A program made the translations under genes and the position numbers. A stretch of 64,000 nucleotides of DNA from Lepidurus packardi (taxonomy: Eukaryota; Arthropoda; Branchiopoda; Notostraca; Triopsidae), in NCBI GenBank assembly GCA_023053545.1, contig JAKZAN010000001.1:2190565-2254564 (forward strand). Reading direction: 5' to 3'. This document shows, piece after piece, positions 35,885 to 58,300 of this stretch. The notes under the pieces are model-generated. The model was not told where the DNA came from. It did not search any database and worked only from the letters and a program-made list of their open reading frames with translations. How positions within the stretch are numbered: position 1 is the stretch's first letter; each line of letters begins with the position of its first letter.

Positions 35885-38800
35885 ATGCCGGAAGCGAAGG
35901 TGTTTGACCATTGTAAGTAACGTAATCTAACAAATCATCCCCAGCGGCGTTTATTTGTTTGACCACAACGCGTCCGAAGGCTACGACTTTGACGCTTTTT
36001 CATTTCCGGGCGTCATTCCAAATTTATCTTAGCGTCCTTAAGACCAAGGCACATCTTTCGCTGGCAACCTTTTGGCATTTTACAGCACTTGCTATCTGCT
36101 TCTCATGCCAAATAATAGTCAAGTAAGCCGCCAACTCATCAATTCCTTTACCTTTTTATTTTTCAGTTAAAACACGTGCATTTATTACCCAACACGCTCA
36201 GAGAACGTAGGAGAAGAAAAGCTCGGATTCTCCTTTATAATTTGTTTATTCAGTTAGACGGGCACGCAAGGCGTCAAATTTGTTTCGCACTTTGATAACG
36301 CGGAACAAAACCCATTTAGGCGCCAAAGTGGAAGTTGTGTGCAAAACCGCACGTATACCTTCAAATGCGGGATGAATTAGCAACTTTTTTCCTTTTTTTC
36401 AGCTTCCCAAAGCAGTCATTTTGTCCTTTCGCGGCGCTTTATTGAACCGGAATCTATTGAAAAGCTATACCAAACAAGTGGATGGAGCTAAAAAAGGGAA
36501 AAGTATCCGAATTGAGATGCTTAGAATTAGTTATACGTGCCTGGTAGCGCGTACAGCTTGTCACACTTTTGGCTCTCCCTTTTTAAAAGTCACACTTTTC
36601 GTTGTAGCCAAGCCACCCTAACCCCCCACTTCAAAAGTGCCCAGGTGGGACGACTTTTAATCAACTCATTATCAGTTACGGTCCGGACTGCACCGTACGT
36701 GCTCTTATGTCTAATACCCTCGCTTGTGTCATATTTCTCTACATAATTTCGGTATTGCCGTGATAATTTTGTGTGTGGAAATTTTGCTTGAAAATTCATT
36801 AGGAAGCGTCCAAGTGGGTTTGCGGCACCGAATGCTTCTTTTGCCCCCTTCCGCCTCCCCATACCGTACCCCGAGCTGGGAGGGGCGAGAAATGCTGTCG
36901 TTTACGGCGGATCCCACCTCATGCAGCGGACTTCTGTTCGCCGTTTATTACCGGCATGAAAAGACGGGATTTTTTCCCGGACTGGACGCCTTTACCACCT
37001 GTGCCTTCCATGGAACGTTGGAGACGGATATTTTAACCTGGGCGGGGACCGTTGGGTTGGATCTATGTCATTGGGAACAGACTTGGAAGTTGGCCTTGGA
37101 ATCAGGTATTTACTTCTTCTTTATTTTGTATTTATTTTCCAGTATCTGTTATTTATTTTTGCATTCTTTGTATTTTTAGTCAAGGCGACAAGCGTGGTAT
37201 TCCTATTGGGGATTGGCGGCCTGATCTGTTACAAATTGTATAAAAAATGCTGGTCCAAGCAAAAAGCGAACGAATCATACTGGCGCCGGAAACGTAGTTT
37301 GAGACGAAAGAGATTGCGAGCGGAGAGATTTCGTAAAGGAGAAGAAGATTCCCGCCCAACGTCAACCTATCCGAGTGAAGAATCCGAAGAAGAAGAGGAT
37401 GAAGAAGAAGAAGACTGGAGTCAAGGCGTTGATGGCTTAAATTACTTTTCCTTTTATCGAGATAAGGTAATTCTTATCTGTTAACACTTATTATTATCGA
37501 TAGTGGACAATTTACCATTCGATTTTATTAACTATTATTTTTATAGTTATCTATTAAAACTATTTTAGTTATTTATTATTTTATTGCTCATTATTAATTA
37601 GTATTTGGCGTTATTTGAATATTTAAATACAAAACGGTTAAATACTACTAGTATACATGTATAGTAGTGACAAATGAAAATAAATAAAACATGGATATTA
37701 TTATTTGCCACATGTAATAAAATTCGATCGTCTTGCTCGTTCACAGAAAAAAGTACCAAAAAGCCCCCGCATTTTATACAAGTCCCGTCCCCGAGACGAA
37801 ACGGAGCATGCCCGCGATGTTAGTCCTTCGTCGCAAGTGTCTGGATGTCTGCGACGTAATTTCACATTGCCGGAATCCTTGGTGTTGCTGCAAGGCCCCT
37901 CCCCGTCCCATATCAGGGGCTACGAGACCTTAGATATGACGGAAGAAGATGGTTTTGACGAAGAAGAAGAAGGCAATAACCGCGTGCGTTCCTATAGCCT
38001 GTGCGTGCGAAAACACGAAGATGGCACCGCCTCCTGGGCCGCGTCTTCCAGCCTGGCGCAGGCGCACTGGGGCCAACTCAAGCGCCACTTGCTCCGCCGC
38101 GAAAGCTCCGTCGATTCGGATCTGGATCTCGACGCCGAGAGCCTCTGCGGGGATTTGAGTCGCTGGCTTAGAGATTGTTCACTCGATTCGCTCAGCTCGA
38201 GCCTTAGTTTGGACTCCAACACGAATCAGGCCCAAGGGAGTTATACGTTGCAGCATTTGGAGAATCTGGAGAAGGAACTGAGTCATGTGAAGCACAACTG
38301 CTTAAAAATGGACCGCGAATTGCTCACGTTACACCTGGACGTAGAGGAACCGTCCCAGGAGCGTAGGGGATCAGGAGCGTCATCCGTGGCTAGTTCGCGA
38401 CCTTCCAGTGCCTTGGATTTAGTCCACGCCTATCAGTCAAGAGCCTCGTTTAAAGGGTTACTCAACTGGGGATGCAATATGGAACCTAGTGAAGAAGAAC
38501 CCGAATTGAGCGTTTTAAATAGCCCAGGTTTGGGACCTCTGTCGGGCGGCAGCTCAGAACATCAAAATTCGTTGGAATGGGACTCGCCTACGCAAGGGTG
38601 GACCCGCTTGCCCAGACGCAGTCGGCACAGGAGCATCTCCATCAACAGCCTAAGCCAAGTCGAGTAAGTTGAAAAAGACTTTTAATCCCTAACACTTTTT
38701 TCTTTATTTTTTCCATAGACGGAGAAAAGATGTGCAGATCATGTTTCTTTGGATTTTAAAATTGTTGGTTCTTGATCGTTTAATTATGGATGTTTTGTTC

Positions 38801-40839
38801 GTTTTCCTATTCAAATTATTTTCTTTTTAAATTTTTATTTTGCATTTTAGGGAAGATGGTGGTAAATCGTTAGAATGGGACAGTGAAGGGTTGCCAGAGG
38901 ATGATGGAATACTCGAAGATCAAAATACAACCGTAGTTTTCCTTCCTATCCAGGAAGGAAGTAAAACAGCTATTAAACTCCAGGAGGAAGATGAAGGAAT
39001 GAGTCGAGAAGGAACAGTGAGTAGAAGTTGCACCGCGTCGCCTTTAACCATCAGGTATGTTAGAGTTGCGTTTAGTTGGGTTAAACTTTTTTGAGAAAAT
39101 ATTGAACTTGAATTTACTATAGATCAGCTAGCTCAGCAAAGGACAGCGGACAGATAAGACCTCGTAAATCCGAGGAAGAAAGATTGAAGAAACTGTGGAG
39201 TTCTGAAGAATCAGGGTATTTGGAAGATGTTTCAGAGTCTTCCACGTCGTTGCTACTTTCTGCTAGTACTTTATCCCCTTTATATGAACACAAGTAAGAC
39301 TTTTCAGTGTGTTTTTCAGTTACATTCAAGTAGTTTTTTGTGATTGAAGAAGTATTAATTTTGGTAGTTTCATAGCAATAATGAAACATGTCGTTCATTG
39401 CTCTTTTCCAGAGAGCGAATGTCTTTATCGGTCGCCAGTACTTCCGTTGCTAGCAGTTGCTTAGCCACGCCCTCGCCCTTTCTAAGTCCTGCCACTCCCC
39501 TAGAAGTATCCGTGGTGCGACGTAGAGAAAAACGATCACAAGATAACCAAAAAAATCAGGAAAATCGAGATTCGGCTTACTCAGAAGATGGGGGCGTGGC
39601 TTTTGGTCTAGAAGCTTTGTCCACCCCTATGCTGATCAGCACTTTTGCTGAATCTCTCTGGCAAGGACAAACTCTTCGAGCTTTCTCTGTGAAACAGGTT
39701 AGAAACAAGAAAAATGAGAATAATGTTTATTGATTCGTGTAATTACGTTTTATTGTTATTTTTTATTACTATTAATATATGTATTGTTCTTTTCTTTTAT
39801 TGGATTTTCGGTAGGGATATGCGGAAGTGGCTGATATCACCCAGTGCCAAAGGATGCGCCGGGTACGACCTGATAACTACGGAGTATTACGTGCAGCTTT
39901 GTGTCAAATGGTTGGCTGTGGCATCCCGTTGCCCAGTCCTGCTCTCACCTTCCATTGTTTGGAAGAAGCATGGAACCGTGGCGATACTTGGATACAGGAG
40001 TGGAGCTTTGGCCATAAATTGCCCTATGGTGCTACCAACGTACTTCAAGGCATGAAAGATTGCTTGGATGACCTCCAAAATCTGGTGCGTTTTAATTGTG
40101 TACCCTGCACTTCACTTGCCATGTTTCTAATTCTTTTTTTTTTTATTTATTTTTTAATTAGGAGATTCAGATTTCAAGCATGGATGAGCCAAAACTGGAG
40201 ACAGTAGCAATGCTCTTGAATGGGGACGCAGAATTGGACTTGCGTTGCATGGAAGCTATAAAATTGCACATGCTTGCTTCCGCCTTGAGTTTACACATGA
40301 CTGATGCATTGGGCGACGCAGTTCCTTTATTTGCTTTGCTACTATTTTCGCGCGGAGGGTCTGAAACACCCCGGGATTTGATGAATAACTACCTAGATCC
40401 CGTAGGAGACTCATTAGCACTCGGCGAGGTAATAATTAGCATGCAGAATTAAGCGTATCTAATTTCCTATTTTTATTTTTAAAAAATACGAACGCATCAG
40501 AGGAATTATCGAGAGGTAGAGTGTTTCTCTTTTACTATAGCTTATAAACTCGTTGATTTTTATGTACCCTTCATTTGTTATTTGGAGCTTGCAAATTTCC
40601 ATGTAGTCATAGACTAGAGTTATCAAAATTGAACTTTCCTTTTGTTTTGTTTTTATCAGGTGGAACTGTATCTTTTAAGCTACACATTGGATATCACGCT
40701 GCAGGTGCTAAGACCCACTGCCTCGGGCAATGAGGAGTTTCGTACGTTATTTCCGGACTCGGAAACTCCCTCACAAAGACCGTTGATCACGATAGTTGCT
40801 GACGACGACCGCCAATTCAGCATCCCGGTGGGGGACTGA
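35885..40839 (+). CDS. Membrane-anchored OTULIN-like protein, probable pseudo-deubiquitinase
   Basis: Probable exons: 35885-35912, 36254-36352, 36403-36477, 36803-37105, 37180-37466, 37747-38663, 38851-39054, 39123-39293, 39412-39697, 39815-40084, 40162-40428, 40660-40839, giving about 1028 residues. The first three exons are less certain. A hydrophobic segment (VVFLLGIGGLICYKLY, about 171-189) is followed by a strongly basic stretch and then an acidic run, so one transmembrane helix is likely. A long Ser/acidic linker follows, with a short possible coiled coil (LENLEKELSHVKHN). The last 240 residues match the OTULIN/OTULINL domain: RVRPDNYGVLRAAL, LLFSRGGSETP, VELYLLSYTLDITLQV and IVADDDRQFSIPV. 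OTULIN has DNYC and DDRHYN as its catalytic Cys, His and Asn. Here these are Gly, Gln and Ser, so Met1-ubiquitin hydrolysis is not expected. Vertebrate OTULINL is also membrane-bound and inactive. The linker and N-terminus are not recognised. Confidence 0.82.
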
Positions 40840-42386: not shown

Positions 42387-45300
42387 CTACATATTCGAAG
42401 GATAATAAACTCGTTCTTCCAAAACGCGGCCTGCTTCAATGCTATTTTGTACCCAATGATACCTCACTAAATGAAATTTCTTCTTTCTGTTCCAGTTAAT
42501 CTCTTTCGCAACTCCCAAATCCGAAATCCTGCAATATTCAAAGTAAAATCTATTTCTCGAAATTTAACTTCAGTTTTCACTTTACCCATTCCAAATGACA
42601 TGTGTCACGTCATCAGTTAGCTCAGTCGTCACTTCCGCTCCATAGATCTTCAGCTCCAACATAACCCTGTCCATGTCTGGGTAGTTTGACCGCCAATTTG
42701 CATCCAAAACGGTTGTATCCACATAAACTTTGCATAAACGAAATACTGCGTATTTGTAGGACCGAGAAAAATTCTCGTACTCAACATCAGCAATCTCTTC
42801 TCGCTGCAACAACGGGGGGTTGATCTTAAAACGAAAAATAGACAAATGGACAGTACGAGATGAACTGCTAGAAAAAATATTTAATTCCGTAGAATTACCA
42901 GTTCTTGTACACGACGTAGTGCAAACTCTAAGCTTTCTTTCGTAGCAGGCTCCGTAAAATTATCACCAAAACGGTCAAAATGAAGTGCCATTTGATCTTC
43001 GCTTCGTTGAGTGGCTTTCCACACATCTACCGGACTAAATGGAATCAACTTGCAAGCATTCAAGCACCTAATTAGCCAATCAGCTCGAATCAAGTCATAT
43101 TTCCCAGAGACGATCAAACTTTGAACCCGAATATCTTTCTTTGCTGCAATAACACAAAACGTATCTTCTCCTAGGGGGAATAAATATGAAAAATTAGGAA
43201 TAATGAAATTTTTGTTTACAAAGTTTAATCAGTTACCTGCATTTTGAACACATGTTCCTCCATGTTCCACTACTTTTTTCATTAAGGCAGTACGATCCAT
43301 CTCCTTGGTCCCATTAATGATAAAGAATTCTTTGCCCTTGAGGAATTCTGAAACCTAAAAGACATAGGGTACATGTGATACCTAAATAAATAAAAATACA
43401 CAAAATACTTTTGAAACGGCCGAAATATCCACAGGTTGAAACTGAGAAGCAAGCATAAAACTCGGCTTAGCAGGACTATTTTCCGATTTTCGCTTTTTGC
43501 CTCCATGGTGTTCCCCATTGTCAGAGTAAAGGCGATTAGCCAATTTCCCTTCTGCCATCTTTAATATTTATTTAGAGCGAAAACAAATAAAAGAGAAAAG
43601 CAAGAAAATTACTTGACGTAACGTGGCGAACTCTGTGACAGTCATACACTCATGCCACGGCTTATCATAACGAACATGCTCTACCCTCGGAAACCGTAAG
43701 GTATACCCCATTTTATATGCATCGCTAGCCACAATTTCACCTGCTTTCACCTGAAATAAAAACTTATTATTATTAATAACGTTTTCCAAGGATAAGTTAA
43801 GTTTATATTGCCTCTACGATGTAAGATTTCTCCGGCTCGATCCAAAGGTCAGGTTTTTCCTTAGTCCAGACGATGTTGCTAGGGCAACTTTCTTTCCTAG
43901 CAACAGCGTTCCAATGTGGAGCCAAATTTAGCATCAATCTATTTAATGTTTCGTCTGAATAACCTGATCCGACTCGCGTAAGCGAGTAAAAGAACAAAGG
44001 TTTGCCTACAAACTTTTCTTTTAAAGTTTACACTTGAATCTGAAGTAAAGTACCTGTTATGGGGTCTTGAACAGCTACGGCCAATAAAAACTTGCTTAAA
44101 TAATCCCGACGTCTTCCCTGACCATAATATCCGCCCACAATAAGCAAATCCAGGTGATCCATCATCCCATCTATGTACTAACAAATTTACGTACAAGCTT
44201 AGATTTGAAATTAAATTTCTTAAATGAATTTTAAGAATACTTCGGGTTTAATTTTTGCCCAGCCTCCTTTACGAATGTTGGGCTTGTAAATCGAGTCAGG
44301 TTGCTTTAAAATTATCCCTTCTTCTCTGGTCTCAATGGCTCGATTGAGCATATCAATTGCTTCTTGCCTAAAAAATGGGCTTCAATCAGTAAAAATAGCT
44401 TTAAATAGTTTTTGTAAGGTTCGAAGTACTTTGTGGACGCAATTTTACGATCTGCTAATGCCAAGCGTCCTTCCAAAGGTTTGAAGACCTTGTCCAAGTA
44501 TTTTAGGCGTTCACGGAGGGGCAGACTAGACAATACTTTACGGTTATACATGAGAATGTCAAAGACGACAAAATATGGCTGGAAAGTGCTTTCAGGCCGT
44601 AAAGATTTGACATCCAAATTAGCTCCTAAGAACCAAATTTTAAATTAAGACGACGAGCAGGCAGTTGTAGGTTACACTAATACCTTTTGATATAATAAAG
44701 TTTTTGATTTTGTCCCAGACGAGCATTTCTCCGTCCAGAATGCAAGATTCCACTTCAGGATTGAACTGAGAGGCAATAAAAGGAGTTAAAGAGCCCTCTG
44801 CATTGCTTCCACCAAATTTATTAGTGTAATCAAAGCCATTCCTATTCAAAATGCAAACAAAATTTTGCACAAAATAAATTTATAAAATAAGAGAATAATA
44901 AATAGAAATATTTTACCTAGAGAAGAATTTGAAGGCATTGCCTTGTTTATGGAGTTGAAATCTCTCGCCATCAAACTTAGTTTCAATGTAGAAAGGCTTT
45001 CTATCCATAGCAACTTCTACGTTGTTTAAGTTGACAGTTTTGTCAGCCAACATAGGCCGAAAACAATCGAATAAAGAGACACTTTTCTCTTCTAACCGGA
45101 CTGCAGGGTCTCTTAGTTCCATACAAACCTAAACAGCGTAAAAAATTTATCCTGTTAACATTTGCTATTACAAACCTTAAGATAATTACCTTTTTAAGAT
45201 CATTGCGAGTGTCGTGTAATTCTTTTGCGTCTGGATGGAATATTTCCATAATAGCGTCTTTTCCCAGCCCAAGTCTAAACTCTCTCTTGAGAATTATCCG

Positions 45301-46012
45301 AATAAGCCACTTCTGTTCTTCGGCCGACATATGAGTGACTAACACCTTCAGATTTTCTTGTTTCTTCTCTAATAAGGAATAATTCTGCTTCTTGAATGGT
45401 AAAAAATTGGAAATTTCAATGCTACCTTGGTCTTTGTCGGCGAAACCTGCGGCCACAGCGTCCAAACGATCATTGACTTCTTCAATGGATAAGTTGCCAC
45501 GTTTCGGGCATCGATTTTTTAAAACCAGGTAGGCTTGATCAGCAAAATTGTTGGTCGAATGGGTTGATCTAGGAGCTCTGTGTTTAAAAGTGCATTTAAA
45601 TTACTCTTTCCATTAAGAACTTTGCAAGCATACTTATACGAAAGGAGTTTTTGAGCGTCATTTCCTTCTTTGGGCAACGCTAAAATACCAACATAAAGCC
45701 GGGCTAAAGTAACTTCTTGGACCCCGTAGCTAGTTCGGGCTCTGTCTAATGATGGAAGCAATAGGCGGAGTACCGGAAACAAACTCTCATCCTAATGAAA
45801 AATAAACTAATAAATAAAAATTTTATACAACACAGACGACAGAGAATAGTTACCATATCAGGAGAAGTTTTAAGTCGTTCTCGGTAAGCAGCGAAATAAT
45901 CCGAGAGTATTTTTCGTTTCGAAATTTTCTTGTCAGATTTGTTTGTCTTGTGAATTTTTTCGCATAGTTCCGCAAGCTCACTAAATGGAATTTGTGAAGC
46001 GACAGAAGCCAT
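42387..46012 (-). CDS. LIG4: DNA ligase IV
   Basis: Exons, in transcript order: 46012-45854, 45791-45634, 45577-45190, 45128-44917, 44841-44684, 44625-44430, 44367-44241, 44177-44054, 44005-43812, 43750-43613, 43558-43409, 43354-43237, 43170-42899, 42824-42586, 42528-42387. The 15 exons give 924 residues (human 911). This ATP-dependent ligase joins double-strand breaks in non-homologous end joining with XRCC4. The adenylation motif is [15 protein letters not shown], with the catalytic Lys near residue 286. Other blocks are [49 protein letters not shown] and [19 protein letters not shown]. Two C-terminal BRCT regions follow, the first ending DWLIRCL-like and the second near YVDTTVLD to HWVQNSIE, with the XRCC4-binding linker between. 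The ninth intron appears to use a GC donor. The start codon lies 374 bases from the divergent SIAH start. Confidence 0.95.
43751..43811 (-). other. Probable GC-AG intron in LIG4
   Basis: Homology wants YIVE joined to [10 protein letters not shown]. That requires a donor GAG|GCAATA at 43811-43810 and an acceptor CAG ending at 43751. A GT donor six bases earlier (ATC|GTAGAG) is also in phase and would drop two residues. Confidence 0.55.
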
Positions 46013-47531: not shown

Positions 47532-50400
47532 TAAGCAAAGATCTTGTCCCATTCCCAATTAATATTATACCCACGCCCCCCAAGATTGGGAGGAAAATCA
47601 GAAGTGTAAATTTCCGTAGGTATAAGAGAAAATCAGCCCAGGTTTCTAAAAATTTAACAAATGGTGTGATACAAGCTCCTTTATCACCAATATTTTTTGT
47701 TTTTTTTCAGAAGTGACTTTTTTAACACGAGTGAGAGCATGTGGGTGTGTCTTACGGCCGTGCAGCTGTGATAGAAACAAGGGGCGTGGCCCATAATTGC
47801 ATACAATTTGAGTACGAATGTGTAATTTAAAACTACATGTATGGGGTTCATTTGAACGTCAATGAAATGCTAAAATAATTACTGTAAAATTAAATAAAAT
47901 TTCCGAAAATTAGGGAATATATAATATTTTTTTATCATTTGATACTAGAAATTACATCGAATAGGAATACTAACTTAACGAACAGTTAATTATTTATTTA
48001 TTTAAAAAAAAATTAAACAAGCAATCGTGCACACAATAGTCAACGATTGCGAATTTTAGCCTATAAAACCACAAGGAATAGGCTTCATAGCTCCGAATTC
48101 CTCACTGCTCTGTTACTGTAGCTAGCTTCGTATCTTAGGAATACATTAAGTTGAATTTCACGACAAGTAACATACAATAACAGTGTACAAAAATGGTAAA
48201 AAAACAAACGTACCATTGTAGCGAACATCAGAGCAATCGGAATTGTAGCGAACATTTTCGTTTGTTTACGTCATCAATTCCTTTCAGCACCGCAACGTGT
48301 CCACGAGCTTTGGTTACGTTACGCGTTACCATAAGTTAGTCCAGTACCAAATATTAGATAATTAGAAAGTCAATAATCTCGCAGCGAAATACATGTATTT
48401 GCAGTTCTCTGCTTTCATTTCGATTAAAAGTCTGTCATTGTTTACATATTCCCTAAGCCCCTTTCAAGAGTATCTCCCAAGACAATCACTTGACCTTCTT
48501 AAGCAGCTGTCGTATACTCGTGCCAAGTGATTAACTGGTCATTAATTTCCCCTTTCCTTACTCGCCCAAAATTTTGGGCGGAGCACGCATGCAGAAAGGC
48601 GAGGGGAAAGGAAAAGAAGCGAAGGAAGAAAAGGTTTAAGACAAAAGGTTCAAACCCCGCAGGATTGGGACCCCCCATTGGGTTCCCCCACCAACCTACT
48701 GATAAAATCCATCAGGGAGGATGAAAAGTGACATATTAATCGACAGTTGTTTTGCCTTTTCCCTTCAAGTCCATGCAACTCAAGCTCTCCAAACCTACCA
48801 CGTCTGGACGAAAAACCTTAGGCAAAACCGGTTCGAGTTCAAATATCCCCCTCTTAACTTAACCATGTCCAACTTTAGTCATCCAGGTGTACACGACAAT
48901 CTATCGCCAATCTGCATCTGAAGCTGGGCCAGACTTACCTTTGGCTCATGGTAATTTTTTTCTTCACCTGTCTATCCCCCACCTTACCCTCCCCTTTCAC
49001 CCTTCAGCCAGCCTCGTTTACCTGTCTCAAGCAAAGGGAAATTTTCCGGAGGAGGTGTGTATGTAAAACTTGGCATGTGTTAAGCAAGACATATACCCTG
49101 GGCAAACAGCAAAAACAGGTTTTAGGAGCTCCCCATGGGTTTGAGAACTCTGTCTTTCTCTTTATCTGGCTTCGCCTCTTTTTGAACCCAAATTTCCCAG
49201 AGAGCTCAGAGACTTTTGTGAGCGTGAGTGTGTGTGAAGCATGGTCTTGTCAGACACGACGAACACGACAGCCCTGACACCCCAAAAGCCAGGCTCTTGG
49301 GAGAAGATCTTTACTGGGCAAGCCGAGTTGAGTGTTGGAAGAGGAGAGGCAATTGGCGGTGAGTGAACTTGGAGTGTTGGGGACGGACACAAAAGCTTTT
49401 CGGAGTCAGTGCAGCCTCAGCCATTGCGCTCGTTGCTCCGTTGCGTTGTTCTGTGTTCCTCCTACGCAGCCAAACGTCACGAACATTGATTTTTGTCTCA
49501 AAGCTACCGTAAGAGTATATCTTTTTCTTGGCCAGTGGGTTGGCGTGGACTCGGTATCAGCTAGCACCTGGCAGTTGCTTGCATATTTAGTGGAATAGGA
49601 AAAGAAAAGTGTGCACAGTTTTTGCGGGCCCATGAGTGGGCAAAAGTGCCCCGCCCAGTTAGCTGCAAAACCTTTGAATTTAAAATGAGCTAAATTTGTT
49701 TCGGAAATCGCGTGTCAGAAAAACTTAGCCGTAGATTGAATTTGAAATCCAGAAAAAAAAACATTGAGGCGAAAACTTAGGAAAATTACGAAAAAGATGT
49801 CGAGGAAATATATCTAAAACTAAACTTGAAAAGCAAACGTTTGACTTAGATAATTTGAAGTGATTCACCCTATCCATTAAAATTGTGCATTTAACCCGAG
49901 AAAAATTCCTCTTATGTACGTGACTTACGGGAAAACTTGAGAACAAACAAATCGTAGTTTTGAGTTAAGGAATCTCCGTTGAAATTCATGTTGAAACAAA
50001 AACGGTAAACAAAGTGATTCGAAAACTGAAACACCCGACGTCGAAGGTCACTGAATAACCTGCGAGTCATTCGAGTATCGTTTCTTAATTAAAACCAGCC
50101 ATTAACCCAAACCTCCAAACTCGGATTTCATATAGGCGCGAATACTGAGAAAATACTGACAACACCGTAACTCAAGCTCGAAAGTCGTGTTTAAACCACC
50201 CACAAACGATAGTGACATTATCCAAAATCCGAGATTCTTCAGAAAAAAAACCCTAATAGTCTTGTGTTTTAAACAAAACTCTTGAATAGTAAACTGTTGC
50301 TTATAGCCATAAAGCTGTCTTTCAACCTATATCGATGAGCAAAAACTTCGACGATTCGTTAAACATTCGAAAGACTCGAGTACAAATAAATAATCCGAAA
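47532..50400. promoter_or_regulatory. Large intergenic region upstream of SFRP
   Basis: About 2.9 kb with no recognisable coding sequence. 48580-49660 is GC-richer, with a purine-rich tract (about 48600-48640) and a pyrimidine-rich tract (about 48955-49020), and may hold promoter or 5' leader sequence. 49680-50330 is AT-rich. Open frames such as 48948-49277 and 49332-49598 lack domains. Confidence 0.4.
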
Positions 50401-52787
50401 ATGAAAAGCAGTTGGTTACCGTGGATGTTAACGTTAGGAAGCGTGCTGAGTGTGTTGGAGGCGTTCCCAAATAATCCGAGTGGGTTAGGGATGATTAGCG
50501 GCGGCGGCGGCGGCTATTTAGACCACCATTGGAGCCACGGGGGCGTTTTGGGGGCGGGGCGATCAGCTCCACCTACTTGCGTGGATATTCCGCGCAATTT
50601 GTCGCTCTGCCACGGGATTGGCTACTCAAAAATGCGATTGCCTAACCTTTTAGAGCACGATTCTTTGGGGGAAGTTCTCCAGCAAGCCGCGTCGTGGGTC
50701 CCGCTCTTGAACGTGCGTTGCCACCCGGATACGCAACTTTTTTTGTGCTCGCTCTTCTCGCCAGTTTGCTTGGACCGCCCCATTTACCCTTGCCGAGACT
50801 TGTGCGAGAAAGTGCGGACAGGCTGCGAAGGTCGCATGAAAACATACGGCTATCCTTGGCCGGATATGTTCCGCTGCGACAAATTTCCGCTTGATAACGA
50901 CATGTGTATCACGCCGATGGCCGGTGCTGCCACGTCCACAGGATCCGGTAGCAGTAGTTCTAGTAGTCCTAGCTCTACTAACTCGCAAGGCAGCAAAGCC
51001 TGGGCGGGGCCAGGTAAAATTTTGAGCAGATCCAACATCTTATAAGTTTGTAATGTTGTAAAACTAACAGAGAATTATAAACTTTTTCTTCAGGATTTGT
51101 AATACTCTTGTGTTCCTAAGTGATGAGGAAGAATCCTAATTCCAAAACAAAATGCACTAAAAATGAAAGCTACTTTTTTTTAGAAATGGGATAACTGGAT
51201 GCGTTAGAAACCCCTAGGAAGATAGTCGATTTCCAAGTCTGATAATTTTTTTTGGTACTATACTCGTAAAACGGAATATATTCTGAGAAATAAGACAGCG
51301 ATTTTGACGTCTTAGGTAGACTAAAAGAGAGACTAGATATATTGTGTTGGCATATTTTGGCTGCGGGAATAAAAATTTGCTAACGCAAACGAGTATCAAC
51401 TAAACAATAGCAAAGTACACAAAGTTGAGCCAAATTCACCAAAAATATCACGTTAAGTGCTTTCATCTTCTCGTAAAATTCTGCGTATTTAAAAGGACAT
51501 TAACTATCCCAAGTTCGTAGTTAGCCAAATTTCGCAATTTTCCAGTTTTCGTATTTCTATTTTTCCTGCGTTATCCTAGATCTCTGTTTCTCCGCTTACA
51601 CTGTCACTGAGGAATTTGAAAAGAAAATATATTCACATATAGGAAATAAATCCAACGGAAATTCTTCCATGTTAAAAGTTCTGCTACAAGCTAAGATGTC
51701 TATTTACGTATACATAAGGAAATAAACTTGCTTTGAGCTTTCCACGCTTGAAAAGTTTCATTTCCCTTTGAAAAACAAGCCCTGTTCAACCTCTGCTTGT
51801 TAAACAGTTTGCCTTTTCCGCAAATATACCAAGCTTGACCAAATATTCCCGTTCTCCCACAAGTTTCGTGTATTTTCTTAGGCGAGTGCGGGGCATGCCA
51901 CCAGGTCGACACCTATGAAAACATCCTGGATCATTACTGTAGAGCAGATTTTGGTATACTGACATAATAATGATAATAATTAAAACACTTTTATAACATG
52001 TCTTTTATTTTACCTTCGATTAGTGATACGGGGTAAAGGACGTAAAGCGAAAAAAACGAAAATTATGGTGAAAAAAGTCAAAATCCTCAAAGTGGGCGGA
52101 CCCTTAAAAGAGGCGTGGCGACGACCTTCGCAACGCGCAGGTGCATCCGGAGGTGGCCGAACTGCCTTGAGCTTAGAACTACCCGGCGAAACCTGCTGTG
52201 ACGCTATGCTCCGCCCACCAGCGGGTGATAAGCTACTCATCATGGGAACTCAACTCGGCTCCGAGTTAATTCCAACGTTTATTCTTCCATGGAACAAAAG
52301 ATCCAAAGTAATGAAAATGTTTAAAAAATTATTTTATAAACATTTATATTATTTTAATACTAGCTAAATTTCAATGTCCATATCGAAAATTCATATTCGT
52401 GAAAAAAATAATCCATTGATCTTTCGCTGTTTTCAGACTATTAGATCTGCGGTAAAAGCGTTCAAGAAATTCAATTGCTCAGACCCTAAATCGGTCTTTG
52501 GGGATGGTCACCTAAGCCAAGCCCACTTAGGCACGCCCACGAACAACGACACCGGTCGGCGCAAACGTGGAGGACGAAACAAGCTCCACCCCAATAATTC
52601 CACCATTATTGAACCTGCAGAAACCCCTTCAACCATCCAAGGCCCTCGAAACAAACACAAATCAAAAGTCACGCCTTTGTCCACTACTCCGGCTCCAACT
52701 TCGACCGCTTCGAGTCCACCGGAGAGAAGAAATGGAAATAAGAAGAGCAGACCACGAAATACACCCACGCCCGTGCCCGATTCCTAG
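50401..52787 (+). CDS. SFRP: Secreted frizzled-related protein (CRD plus netrin-like domain)
   Basis: Exons: 50401-51013, 51882-51953, 52024-52307, 52437-52787, giving 439 residues. The start chosen is MKSSWLPWMLTLGSVLSVLEA, a good signal peptide; an in-frame ATG at 50335 would put 22 polar residues ahead of it. The frizzled-type cysteine-rich domain has ten cysteines from CVDIPRNLSLCHGIGY through RCHPDTQLFLCSLFSPVC and PCRDLCEKVRTGCE to RCDKFPLDNDMC. After a Ser-rich linker comes a netrin-like domain with six cysteines (ECGACHQVD, HYCRADF, ETCCDAM, KKFNCS), a KKVKILK basic stretch and DKLLIMG. No seven-pass region follows, so it is an SFRP, not a Frizzled. Such proteins bind Wnt or Frizzled outside the cell. 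It has an unusual basic, Pro/Thr-rich tail of roughly 90 residues. Confidence 0.93.
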
Positions 52788-55356: not shown

Positions 55357-58300
55357 CTACTTATTATATCTGGCAGTTCCAGCACTTTGCTGTAGGTCTT
55401 GTAGTTCCTCCTACAACAGAAAACACTTAAAAATTCCTAAATGTAAAACCTTAAAATATTACCTCTGTATATGAATAATTCACCGTGAACTTCTTAGCAG
55501 TGACAATCCCAGCTTTGCGTAGTACCGCAACCCCATGTTCCAAGCAAAACGAATTATCCTCATGATCCAAAACCTGAAAATCAATCCAAAGAACTCTTTC
55601 AGTTCCCTTGGAGAGATACCAAAAAAATTAAAATCTAAAAAAGAAATCCCTTACTCTAGACAAGAATAAATTCTTGCGACAAGAATCACATTCCCACTCT
55701 TCATCCACATCAGGCGTCGTCCCGACCGAAGTTTTTCGTCCCTTCCCAACCTTATTCTTAGCCCACACGACTCGTTCCCATCGTCCCACCCCCAATTTCC
55801 TCAACGCTTGCCGGCCTTTACACTCGTTCGACACCAAAACCACCAAAAGCGGCTTGATCTTCGCCCAAATTTTCGCACTTGTCCTTCCATCTTGGGCGAG
55901 GTTTACCACCAAACGATCCAAACTAAAAACAGTTGGTTCGCAGCTCAACTTTGCCTCCTAGAAAAAAAAACTAACTTGAATGCCAATCTTTTACAGCTAA
56001 AATAATTATAATGTTGTCTTCAGGTTTAACCTTACCTCAAATAGCTGTTGTGCAGAGTCTAACCAATCCAAAGGCGCAAAATAAACGCTTTCCGAGACGG
56101 AGTACCCCGTTCCCACAGACGATATAAACGCCCGCGGCCAAATGACCATAAACTGCCCCGGTTCTTGTACCGTGCGACATACGTTCACACCTTCTTGTTT
56201 TAAGACATGGGGCGGAACCATGACAGTATCCGAGGGAAGCCACACGCTTTTTTCTCGGATTAAATCTGGAGTTAATTTCTTTAAAGCGTCGCGGAAAACG
56301 GTCGCTTGCTCCGCCCCTACGCCGTACCACACTTTGCCCACTCCAGTGTGCAAATACTCGATCCAGGGCAAGCCATGGGGATCCCGGTACCAGCAGCATG
56401 TACTAAACAGCATATTCAAATGCAACGTGGGCAATGTGACGCCCATAAGTGCGCCCATGGCTTTGAGTAAGGATTGCTGGTCACTGCTCAAGACTTTAAG
56501 GTTCCAGGGATGTTTTTCGATTTTCGCAGATGGGAATCCATAGTCGCCCGTCAAGCCCGTGTCGATCGATCCCCCCAAAACAGAGATATGCCGATGTCCA
56601 CCTTCCACAAATTGCCAATAGAGCTTTTCCAGAAGAAGCGTGCTGTTGTTTTTGGCTTCGGCGGGACATAAAGCCGAGTATACGTGGCAAGCTGTGCGGT
56701 AGAAGCTGCTCAAGGTGATACTTTTATCCTATAATCATAAATGTTTTTTTTTATTTTATTAATTTTTAAAAAAGACATTTCCATGTTTTTCCAGCTACTT
56801 TGACAATACATTCGTCCGAGTCCTCGTCACTATCTTCAGACGATTCTTCCTCGGAGTCTGCAATGGGCTTGTTGAGATCCTCCTGGTCTTTCCGGCGCCG
56901 CAATTCGCGTTCCTGGTACTTCTTATCCACTTGGGTTAAAAGTTGCCGCCGATCTGCTTCACTTAGTGCGGCGTAGGGCAGAATATACTTCACATAAACT
57001 GAGTCTAAACGAGTGTTCACGCCAGGAACAGACGGCACGCCCAGTAATTCACCTACTTTGGCCCAGCGCCCTCTTTCCATTACCTAAAATTCATATTGAA
57101 ATAAGGTTAGATTTTAGGCAAAACGTAAACGCCCTCCGTTAAAAAGCAGGAAAAATAAAAATGATTAATAAGTAAAAAAAGCGGTAATTATGCATTTACC
57201 CACTAGAATGCAACAGTGGACTAGGGTGCAATTTTGTTGTCTTTTTTCACAAAAATAACAATACCTGAGTAATGCCCCCTTGGGCTTCTACTGCGTGGTA
57301 TAACTGGGGCAGATCCACTTCTACACCCCCTAAAGAGGGTAAATGCGTGCAGTCAATCTTCAAGCTGCGTAGATGCTTGCGTAAAGCTGCCAGCGTGCGT
57401 GAATTGGGTCCCCAGCGTCGCCATGTGCGATGAATGTAGTGCCTGTAGCCCGTAAAGCGCAAGTCTTCTTGCAAATTGCACTCGGGGCGAAAACTCGAAG
57501 GAGGTATAATACGACAAATGCCGAAAGGCTCCGCTTCCGCACGAATGCGTCGCAGATACGTTAAGGGATCGGCCCATTCCGCTTCTGTAGGTTTAAAAAC
57601 CGGAGCTTCACTCACGTCCTTGCTGTTGTAGTTGGAAGACACTGGAGCTGGGTCCACAGGCTTGAGAACATGCGAGCTAGGACCAGTCTAATAGTTAAAT
57701 GAAAAGGGTAAAAAATTGAACCCACAAATTCTAGAATTTTCAAGTTTACCCAAGACTTCTGACTGAGTGGAGTGCTCTCTTTGATTCGACTCTCGGCTAA
57801 ACGCCTACTTTTCGGGACTATAGCCTCACTGCTCCCATTAATTTCCAGATTTCTCCTTAAATGTAAAAAAAACCCACCAATATATTAAATTAAGATTTAG
57901 ATAATTTTCACCCAAAACGCACTTTTTGGCAGTTCTAGTCTCTCGTTTGCTTTCCACTTCTTTTGTTACTTCCACAGGGTTGTGTAATGTCTTTTTAGCA
58001 GCTTGGATCAGTTTATCTCGTAACTGAGTCAATTCTGGCTGTTTTTTCCCGCTTTTACCTATACTAAAGACACTTTGACTACTTTTACTGCGAGTTATTG
58101 GCTTTGAAGGCAATTTTTGTCCCACAGGCTCTTCTTGGACTGCCTTTCTTCTGGTTTTCACACCAAGGGAGAATTCAGGTTCCTTGCTTCTCATTTCTGT
58201 CTCCGATTCCGCTCTACTTTTGTCCAACATTTCGTTTTTTTTCCTACCATCAAACAAGAAATTGATCAATACATTTTGATTTTAAAACATATCAATTTAA

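Follow-up and report, generated by a model that had tools for sequence, protein, structure and literature searches.

An OTULIN-family protein with a replaced catalytic triad and a probable membrane anchor, predicted from the genome of Lepidurus packardi

Gene organisation and genomic context

The window analysed here, a stretch of 64,000 nucleotides from Lepidurus packardi, holds on its + strand at 36832-40839 a predicted gene of nine exons and eight introns, which was spliced by script from stop-to-stop frames and the DNA (Table 1). All introns are of the GT-AG type, the phases agree throughout, and the predicted protein comprises 951 residues, or 931 if the second in-frame ATG is used. G+C content amounts to 0.42-0.55 in the exons against 0.20-0.31 in the introns, and the predicted frame obtained the best codon score of the three in 9/9 exons, the training set for this score being 12 open frames chosen by eye elsewhere in the window. 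The scores of exons 2 and 5 were weak in absolute terms, yet still the highest of the three frames. Exon 1, in which the two other frames scored 0.005 and 0.103 and contained one stop each, is open into exon 2 with a GT-AG intron between them and is the least certain exon of the model. Because the consistent phase over nine exons, the difference in G+C between exons and introns and the codon scores do not give the look of a decayed pseudogene, the gene is here taken as real and apparently intact, with exons 1 and 2, which bear the putative anchor, as the least secure part of the predicted chain.

Table 1. Predicted features of the OTULIN-like gene, with positions in the window.
Feature	Position	Strand	G+C	Codon score	Content
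Exon 1	36832-37105	+	0.55	0.131	N-terminal ~91 residues; in-frame ATGs at 36832 and 36892
Exon 2	37180-37466	+	0.45	0.009	Putative membrane anchor and basic stretch, acidic run after; acceptor TTTTTAG, donor GTAATT
Putative transmembrane segment	37185-37241	+			Residues 94-112 (ATSVVFLLGIGGLICYKLY); Kyte-Doolittle mean 1.61
Exon 3	37747-38663	+		0.230	Long linker; GT-AG, phase-consistent
Exon 4	38851-39054	+		0.102	Linker
Exon 5	39123-39293	+		-0.029	Linker
Exon 6	39412-39697	+			End of linker and start of OTULIN domain; counterparts of Tyr91 (Phe, 39644-39646) and Trp96 (Trp, 39659-39661)
Exon 7	39815-40084	+			OTULIN domain; Gly736 (GGA, 39881-39883) at the Cys129 position
Exon 8	40162-40428	+			OTULIN domain; helical arm with Leu259 counterpart
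Exon 9	40660-40839	+			End of domain; Gln944 (CAA, 40813-40815), Ser946 (AGC, 40819-40821); stop TGA
AATAAA	41283-41288	+			Candidate polyadenylation signal ~445 bases past the stop; pattern match only

The window contains 55 open frames with a length of at least 110 aa, and ten of those belonging to other genes were scanned against Pfam, with matches that included Nckap1, a Zer-1-like LRR, a DNA ligase N-terminus, Sina/Siah, a Frizzled domain, JmjN, ARID and JmjC, a set that points to an animal. On the - strand at 42582-45600, a DNA ligase N-terminal domain (45046-45600) and BRCT-like frames recognised by eye (42582-43228) mark what is perhaps a DNA ligase IV gene, convergent with the OTULIN-like gene. 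A Frizzled cysteine-rich domain (Fz, 6.6e-28) at 50293-51042 on the + strand could belong to a secreted Frizzled-related protein or to a receptor. Neighbouring frames on the - strand at 56009-57687, with JmjC (56009-56728) and JmjN plus ARID (57250-57687), suggest a homologue of JARID2; as JARID2 of vertebrates is a catalytically dead demethylase, the window may hold two pseudoenzymes. Rfam and tRNA scans of the window gave no match.

The OTULIN-family domain and its active site

Searched against Pfam, the full predicted protein matched PF16218 (Peptidase_C101, OTULIN) with an E-value of 1.2e-52 and 179.5 bits at a cut-off of 27, and no other family scored above its cut-off. The match comprised residues 687-949 (spliced from approximately 39617-40830) and profile positions 3-265 of 265, and the product of the three exons within 39815-40839 alone still reached 2.1e-47. 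In the PDB, that three-exon product matched 10 sequences at E-values up to 1, all of them human OTULIN constructs or OTULINL/FAM105A (best matches OTULIN 3znz, 2.1e-31, and OTULINL/FAM105A 6drm, 1.2e-24); at E-values up to 1e-5 the PDB matches were 10 sequences, all from human OTULIN (best 1.5e-36) or human OTULINL (1.3e-27). Given a whole-domain match above the curated cut-off and E-values at which chance is not credible, the domain is assigned to peptidase family C101, the OTULIN family. When a second OTULIN was sought within the window, only exons 6-9 of the same gene scored (E 1e-7 or better), and the next best hit had an E-value of 0.74.

Alignment with human OTULIN and OTULINL places Gly736, Gln944 and Ser946 at the positions of the OTULIN triad Cys129/His339/Asn341, and the surrounding motifs read DNYG and DDRQFS. 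The counterpart of Tyr91 is Phe, that of Trp96 is Trp, and the inhibitory Asp336 is retained. While the changes to Gln and Ser require one base each, the Cys codons (TGY) are two bases away from GGA, so that a single wrong base is no explanation for the Cys site. The original prediction had proposed an OTULIN-family domain at 39815-40839, alignable with OTULIN and OTULINL over its whole length and with Cys, His and Asn exchanged for Gly, Gln and Ser. The profile search upheld the family, the alignment was borne out with 87/261 and 70/263 identical aligned residues, respectively, and the codons agreed with all three substitutions, to which Tyr91 has to be added; the span, however, turned out to consist of three exons, and the domain begins one exon earlier, in exon 6.

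In human OTULIN, the mutants C129A, H339A and N341A were each reported to be without Met1-diubiquitin hydrolysis, and Tyr91 was described as the sole residue coordinating the side chain of Asn341, with Y91F reducing kcat 20-fold (PMC3690481). The triad on which active OTULIN depends is thus absent from the window protein. With the nucleophile, the base and the third residue of the triad each replaced, the fold should not cut ubiquitin chains any more, and the protein should be a catalytically dead pseudo-deubiquitinase. Caution is advised by USP53/54, which were once annotated as inactive and were reported to be active (PMC12037411), both being USPs and not of the OTULIN family.

Membrane anchor and linker

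The putative transmembrane segment encoded in exon 2 overlaps the most hydrophobic 19-mer of the protein (residues 91-109, mean 1.65). Its hydropathy is modest, as a stretch within the OTULIN fold (residues 847-865) reaches 1.42; residues 113-150, directly after the segment, contain 17 K/R and 5 D/E in 38 residues. Hydropathy and charge together point to a probable membrane anchor, situated ~620 residues ahead of the dead site and separated from the OTULIN domain by ~570 residues. According to the positive-inside rule, a single N-terminal anchor with such a strongly basic flank would place the OTU fold at the C-terminus, together with the long, flexible linker before it, on the cytosolic side. 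S, P, G, Q, N, E, K, D, R or T make up 68% of the linker (residues 151-686), and a search of residues 1-683 against the PDB at E-values up to 1 found no relative. Weak N-terminal Pfam matches to Flavi_NS1 (13.8 bits) and Lge1 (12.6 bits) lay below the cut-off and were taken as chance, as was a weak match to DUF4551 (10.1 bits).

A transmembrane segment upstream of the domain had also been predicted originally, and a probable anchor does lie in the same gene model; the best candidate is found far upstream and does not adjoin 39815. The hydrophobic frame immediately before that position (39693-40055) was rejected as a transmembrane segment, as an intron lies there (39698-39814, G+C 0.21), whose AT-rich sequence reads membrane-like in one of the frames and hence easily gives a false transmembrane call.

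Ubiquitin contacts and partner interfaces

Fourteen non-catalytic OTULIN residues, described as contacting diubiquitin, supporting binding or surrounding the Glu16 pocket (PMC3690481; PMC9363410), were scored. The window protein was identical at 7/14 of these positions and identical or similar at 12/14, OTULINL at 8/14 and 13/14, and against the domain background of 87/261 the enrichment in the window protein was not significant (hypergeometric P 0.14). Retained were Trp96, Gly98, Thr100, Leu259, Glu314, Asp336 and Arg338, among them both mutated S1 sites (Leu259, Glu314); on the S1-prime side, where Trp96, Gly98 and Thr100 are the same, Arg takes the place of Lys102, and the protein lacks Glu95, Arg97 and Gln101.

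With respect to partner proteins, a search for a PIM-like motif N-terminal to the OTU domain, modelled on the motif for HOIP (Asp-Met-Tyr-Arg-Ala) and using the one pattern [DE][MLIVF]Y.., gave no match, the sole occurrence in the protein being ELYLL at residue 894 within the OTU fold. The protein stops three residues past the Ile-Pro of the domain and is without an ETSL-like, PDZ-binding C-terminal tail, a tail whose conservation in OTULIN has been described for mammals and tetrapods (PMC6754446). At the second SNX27 interface, 4/4 mapped acidic residues are changed, and a fifth position falls outside the aligned stretch. Taken together, neither of the known OTULIN partner interfaces appears to be preserved.

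The contact residues bear on the idea that the protein is a natural reader or trap of linear ubiquitin, in which the domain, with the small Gly in place of Cys, would grip Met1-linked chains and shield or gather them at the membrane. OTULIN C129A was reported to bind Met1-diubiquitin with a KD of about 0.2 uM (PMC3690481) and to enrich Met1 chains in cells, an exchange of the active-site Cys for Ala was reported to raise ubiquitin affinity in several DUBs (PMC6172466), and a review of 2015 considered ubiquitin binding possible even for FAM105A (PMC4765238). Contacts such as Trp96 and Asp336 would fit this idea; the insignificant enrichment and the loss of Glu95, Arg97 and Gln101 speak against it. 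Moreover, later work reported no interaction of OTULINL with ubiquitin or with LUBAC (PMC7862380), and since OTULINL retains as many contact residues, their retention was rejected as proof of ubiquitin binding. A role as reader or trap is considered unlikely, though not negligible. Its boldest form, that a non-vertebrate lineage independently turned OTULIN into a membrane-anchored linear-ubiquitin reader, a natural C129A-like trap with Gly that gathers or shields chains on a flexible tether of ~570 residues, is quite improbable.

Relationship to OTULIN and OTULINL

Three sequences (window protein, human OTULIN and human OTULINL) were compared by distances, column patterns and column bootstraps, which yields an unrooted star. 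OTULIN and OTULINL shared 112/264 identical residues, more than either shared with the window protein, and formed the closest pair in 9919/10000 bootstraps. Among 259 ungapped columns, 58 were common to OTULIN and OTULINL alone, 34 to the window protein and OTULIN alone and 17 to the window protein and OTULINL alone, and 53/111 positions identical between OTULIN and OTULINL were retained in the window protein. The latter was nearer to OTULIN than to OTULINL in 9910/10000 bootstraps, a result from three sequences in which rate differences may play a part; within the same limits it was not closer to OTULINL than to OTULIN, as an ortholog of OTULINL would be expected to be. The branches derived from the distances measured 0.254 for OTULIN, 0.321 for OTULINL and 0.412 for the window protein.

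At the triad positions, OTULINL was reported to carry Asp139/His350/His352 (PMC7862380), from which it follows that its domain begins near the N-terminus and that the first His is kept. The dead sites of the two proteins hence have no triad substitution in common. For Ciona, one OTULIN gene, an active one, was reported (PMC4765238). Distances, triad and the Ciona gene favour, rather than prove, a loss of catalysis independent of that in vertebrate OTULINL.

The opposite would be an old membrane-bound pseudo-DUB which predated vertebrates and of which vertebrate OTULINL is the direct descendant. The general layout of a probable anchor and a dead OTU domain is alike in both, 17 columns unite them, and the codons of Gly (GGN) and Asp (GAY) can differ by one base, so that a single ancestral loss of Cys is possible. 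As three sequences only form an unrooted star, an old pseudo-DUB combined with a slowly evolving active OTULIN could also yield the branches found. Against such an ancestry stand the greater nearness to OTULIN in identities, columns and bootstraps, the differing triads and the active single gene of Ciona, and direct descent is therefore regarded as rather unlikely. The resemblance to OTULINL asserted in the original prediction accordingly holds for the dead OTU domain and probably for the anchor; it does not extend to the first His, the other substitutions or the long linker, which OTULINL lacks. The question posed there, whether the architecture predates vertebrates by far or originated twice, was apt: the distances favour the second answer, and the branch lengths leave room for an older origin.

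Four pattern scans for relatives, two each of a genome and a viral contig collection that cover bacteria, archaea and viruses, gave 11, 52, 67 and 4 matches, none of which was confirmed by tblastn, and given these collections they have no bearing on animals. Among the literature matches listed, no title dealt with an invertebrate membrane-bound inactive OTULIN, which is weak evidence of absence.

Functional interpretation

The locus is best explained as an animal gene, apparently intact, whose product is a catalytically dead, probably membrane-tethered member of the OTULIN family, most likely a binding module or scaffold at the membrane and possibly also a reader of linear ubiquitin, and we consider this explanation probable. 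The OTU fold, deprived of its triad, would no longer cleave ubiquitin chains and would instead serve partner proteins at the membrane as a binding module or scaffold, a role most likely by analogy with the one proposed for OTULINL at the ER.

Two other explanations concern the state of the gene itself. It might be a lineage-specific relic, the only OTULIN of its lineage, inactive since CYLD took over the removal of linear chains and now drifting. It was reported that Drosophila has no orthologue of OTULIN, that LUBEL, its homologue of HOIP, lacks the PUB domain, and that Drosophila CYLD hydrolyses linear and Lys63 chains (PMC5090701), to which the lack of a match to the one PIM-like pattern outside the OTU fold may be added. 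However, the reading frame stays open through all nine exons and scores as coding, which argues for retained function and makes a drifting relic quite doubtful. An artefact of assembly or annotation, with anchor exons from another gene or triad changes that are errors, is very improbable: the predicted junction of exons 2 and 3 does rest on splice signals and a phase match with a one-in-three chance, but the changes affect three separate triad sites plus Tyr91 and amount to two bases at the Cys site, in a window without any N.

If it is anchored in a membrane and distinct from OTULINL, the protein would be a second dead OTULIN of this type, which would suggest that the OTULIN fold is repeatedly useful at membranes without catalysis. 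The window protein would then also serve as an external reference by which to recognise the surfaces that matter in OTULINL.

Comparison with known systems

Three known proteins lend themselves to comparison. OTULINL/FAM105A (6drm) shares with the window protein an OTULIN-family OTU fold with a dead active site and was described as having an N-terminal predicted membrane localisation motif, an ER location and a supposed role in protein interaction (PMC7862380). It differs in the residues of the dead site (Asp/His/His versus Gly/Gln/Ser), in sequence, with the 70/263 identities given above, and in the absence of the linker of ~570 residues, its catalytic position being residue 139 as opposed to 736. 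OTULIN/FAM105B (3znz) is the closest by sequence, and Trp96, Thr100, Leu259, Glu314 and Asp336 are common to both; unlike OTULIN, the window protein has a changed triad and Tyr91, no N-terminal PIM match, no ETSL-like tail and changed SNX27 residues. The laboratory mutant OTULIN C129A resembles the window protein in having a small residue in place of the nucleophile, whereas in the window protein His, Asn and several S1-prime contacts are changed as well.
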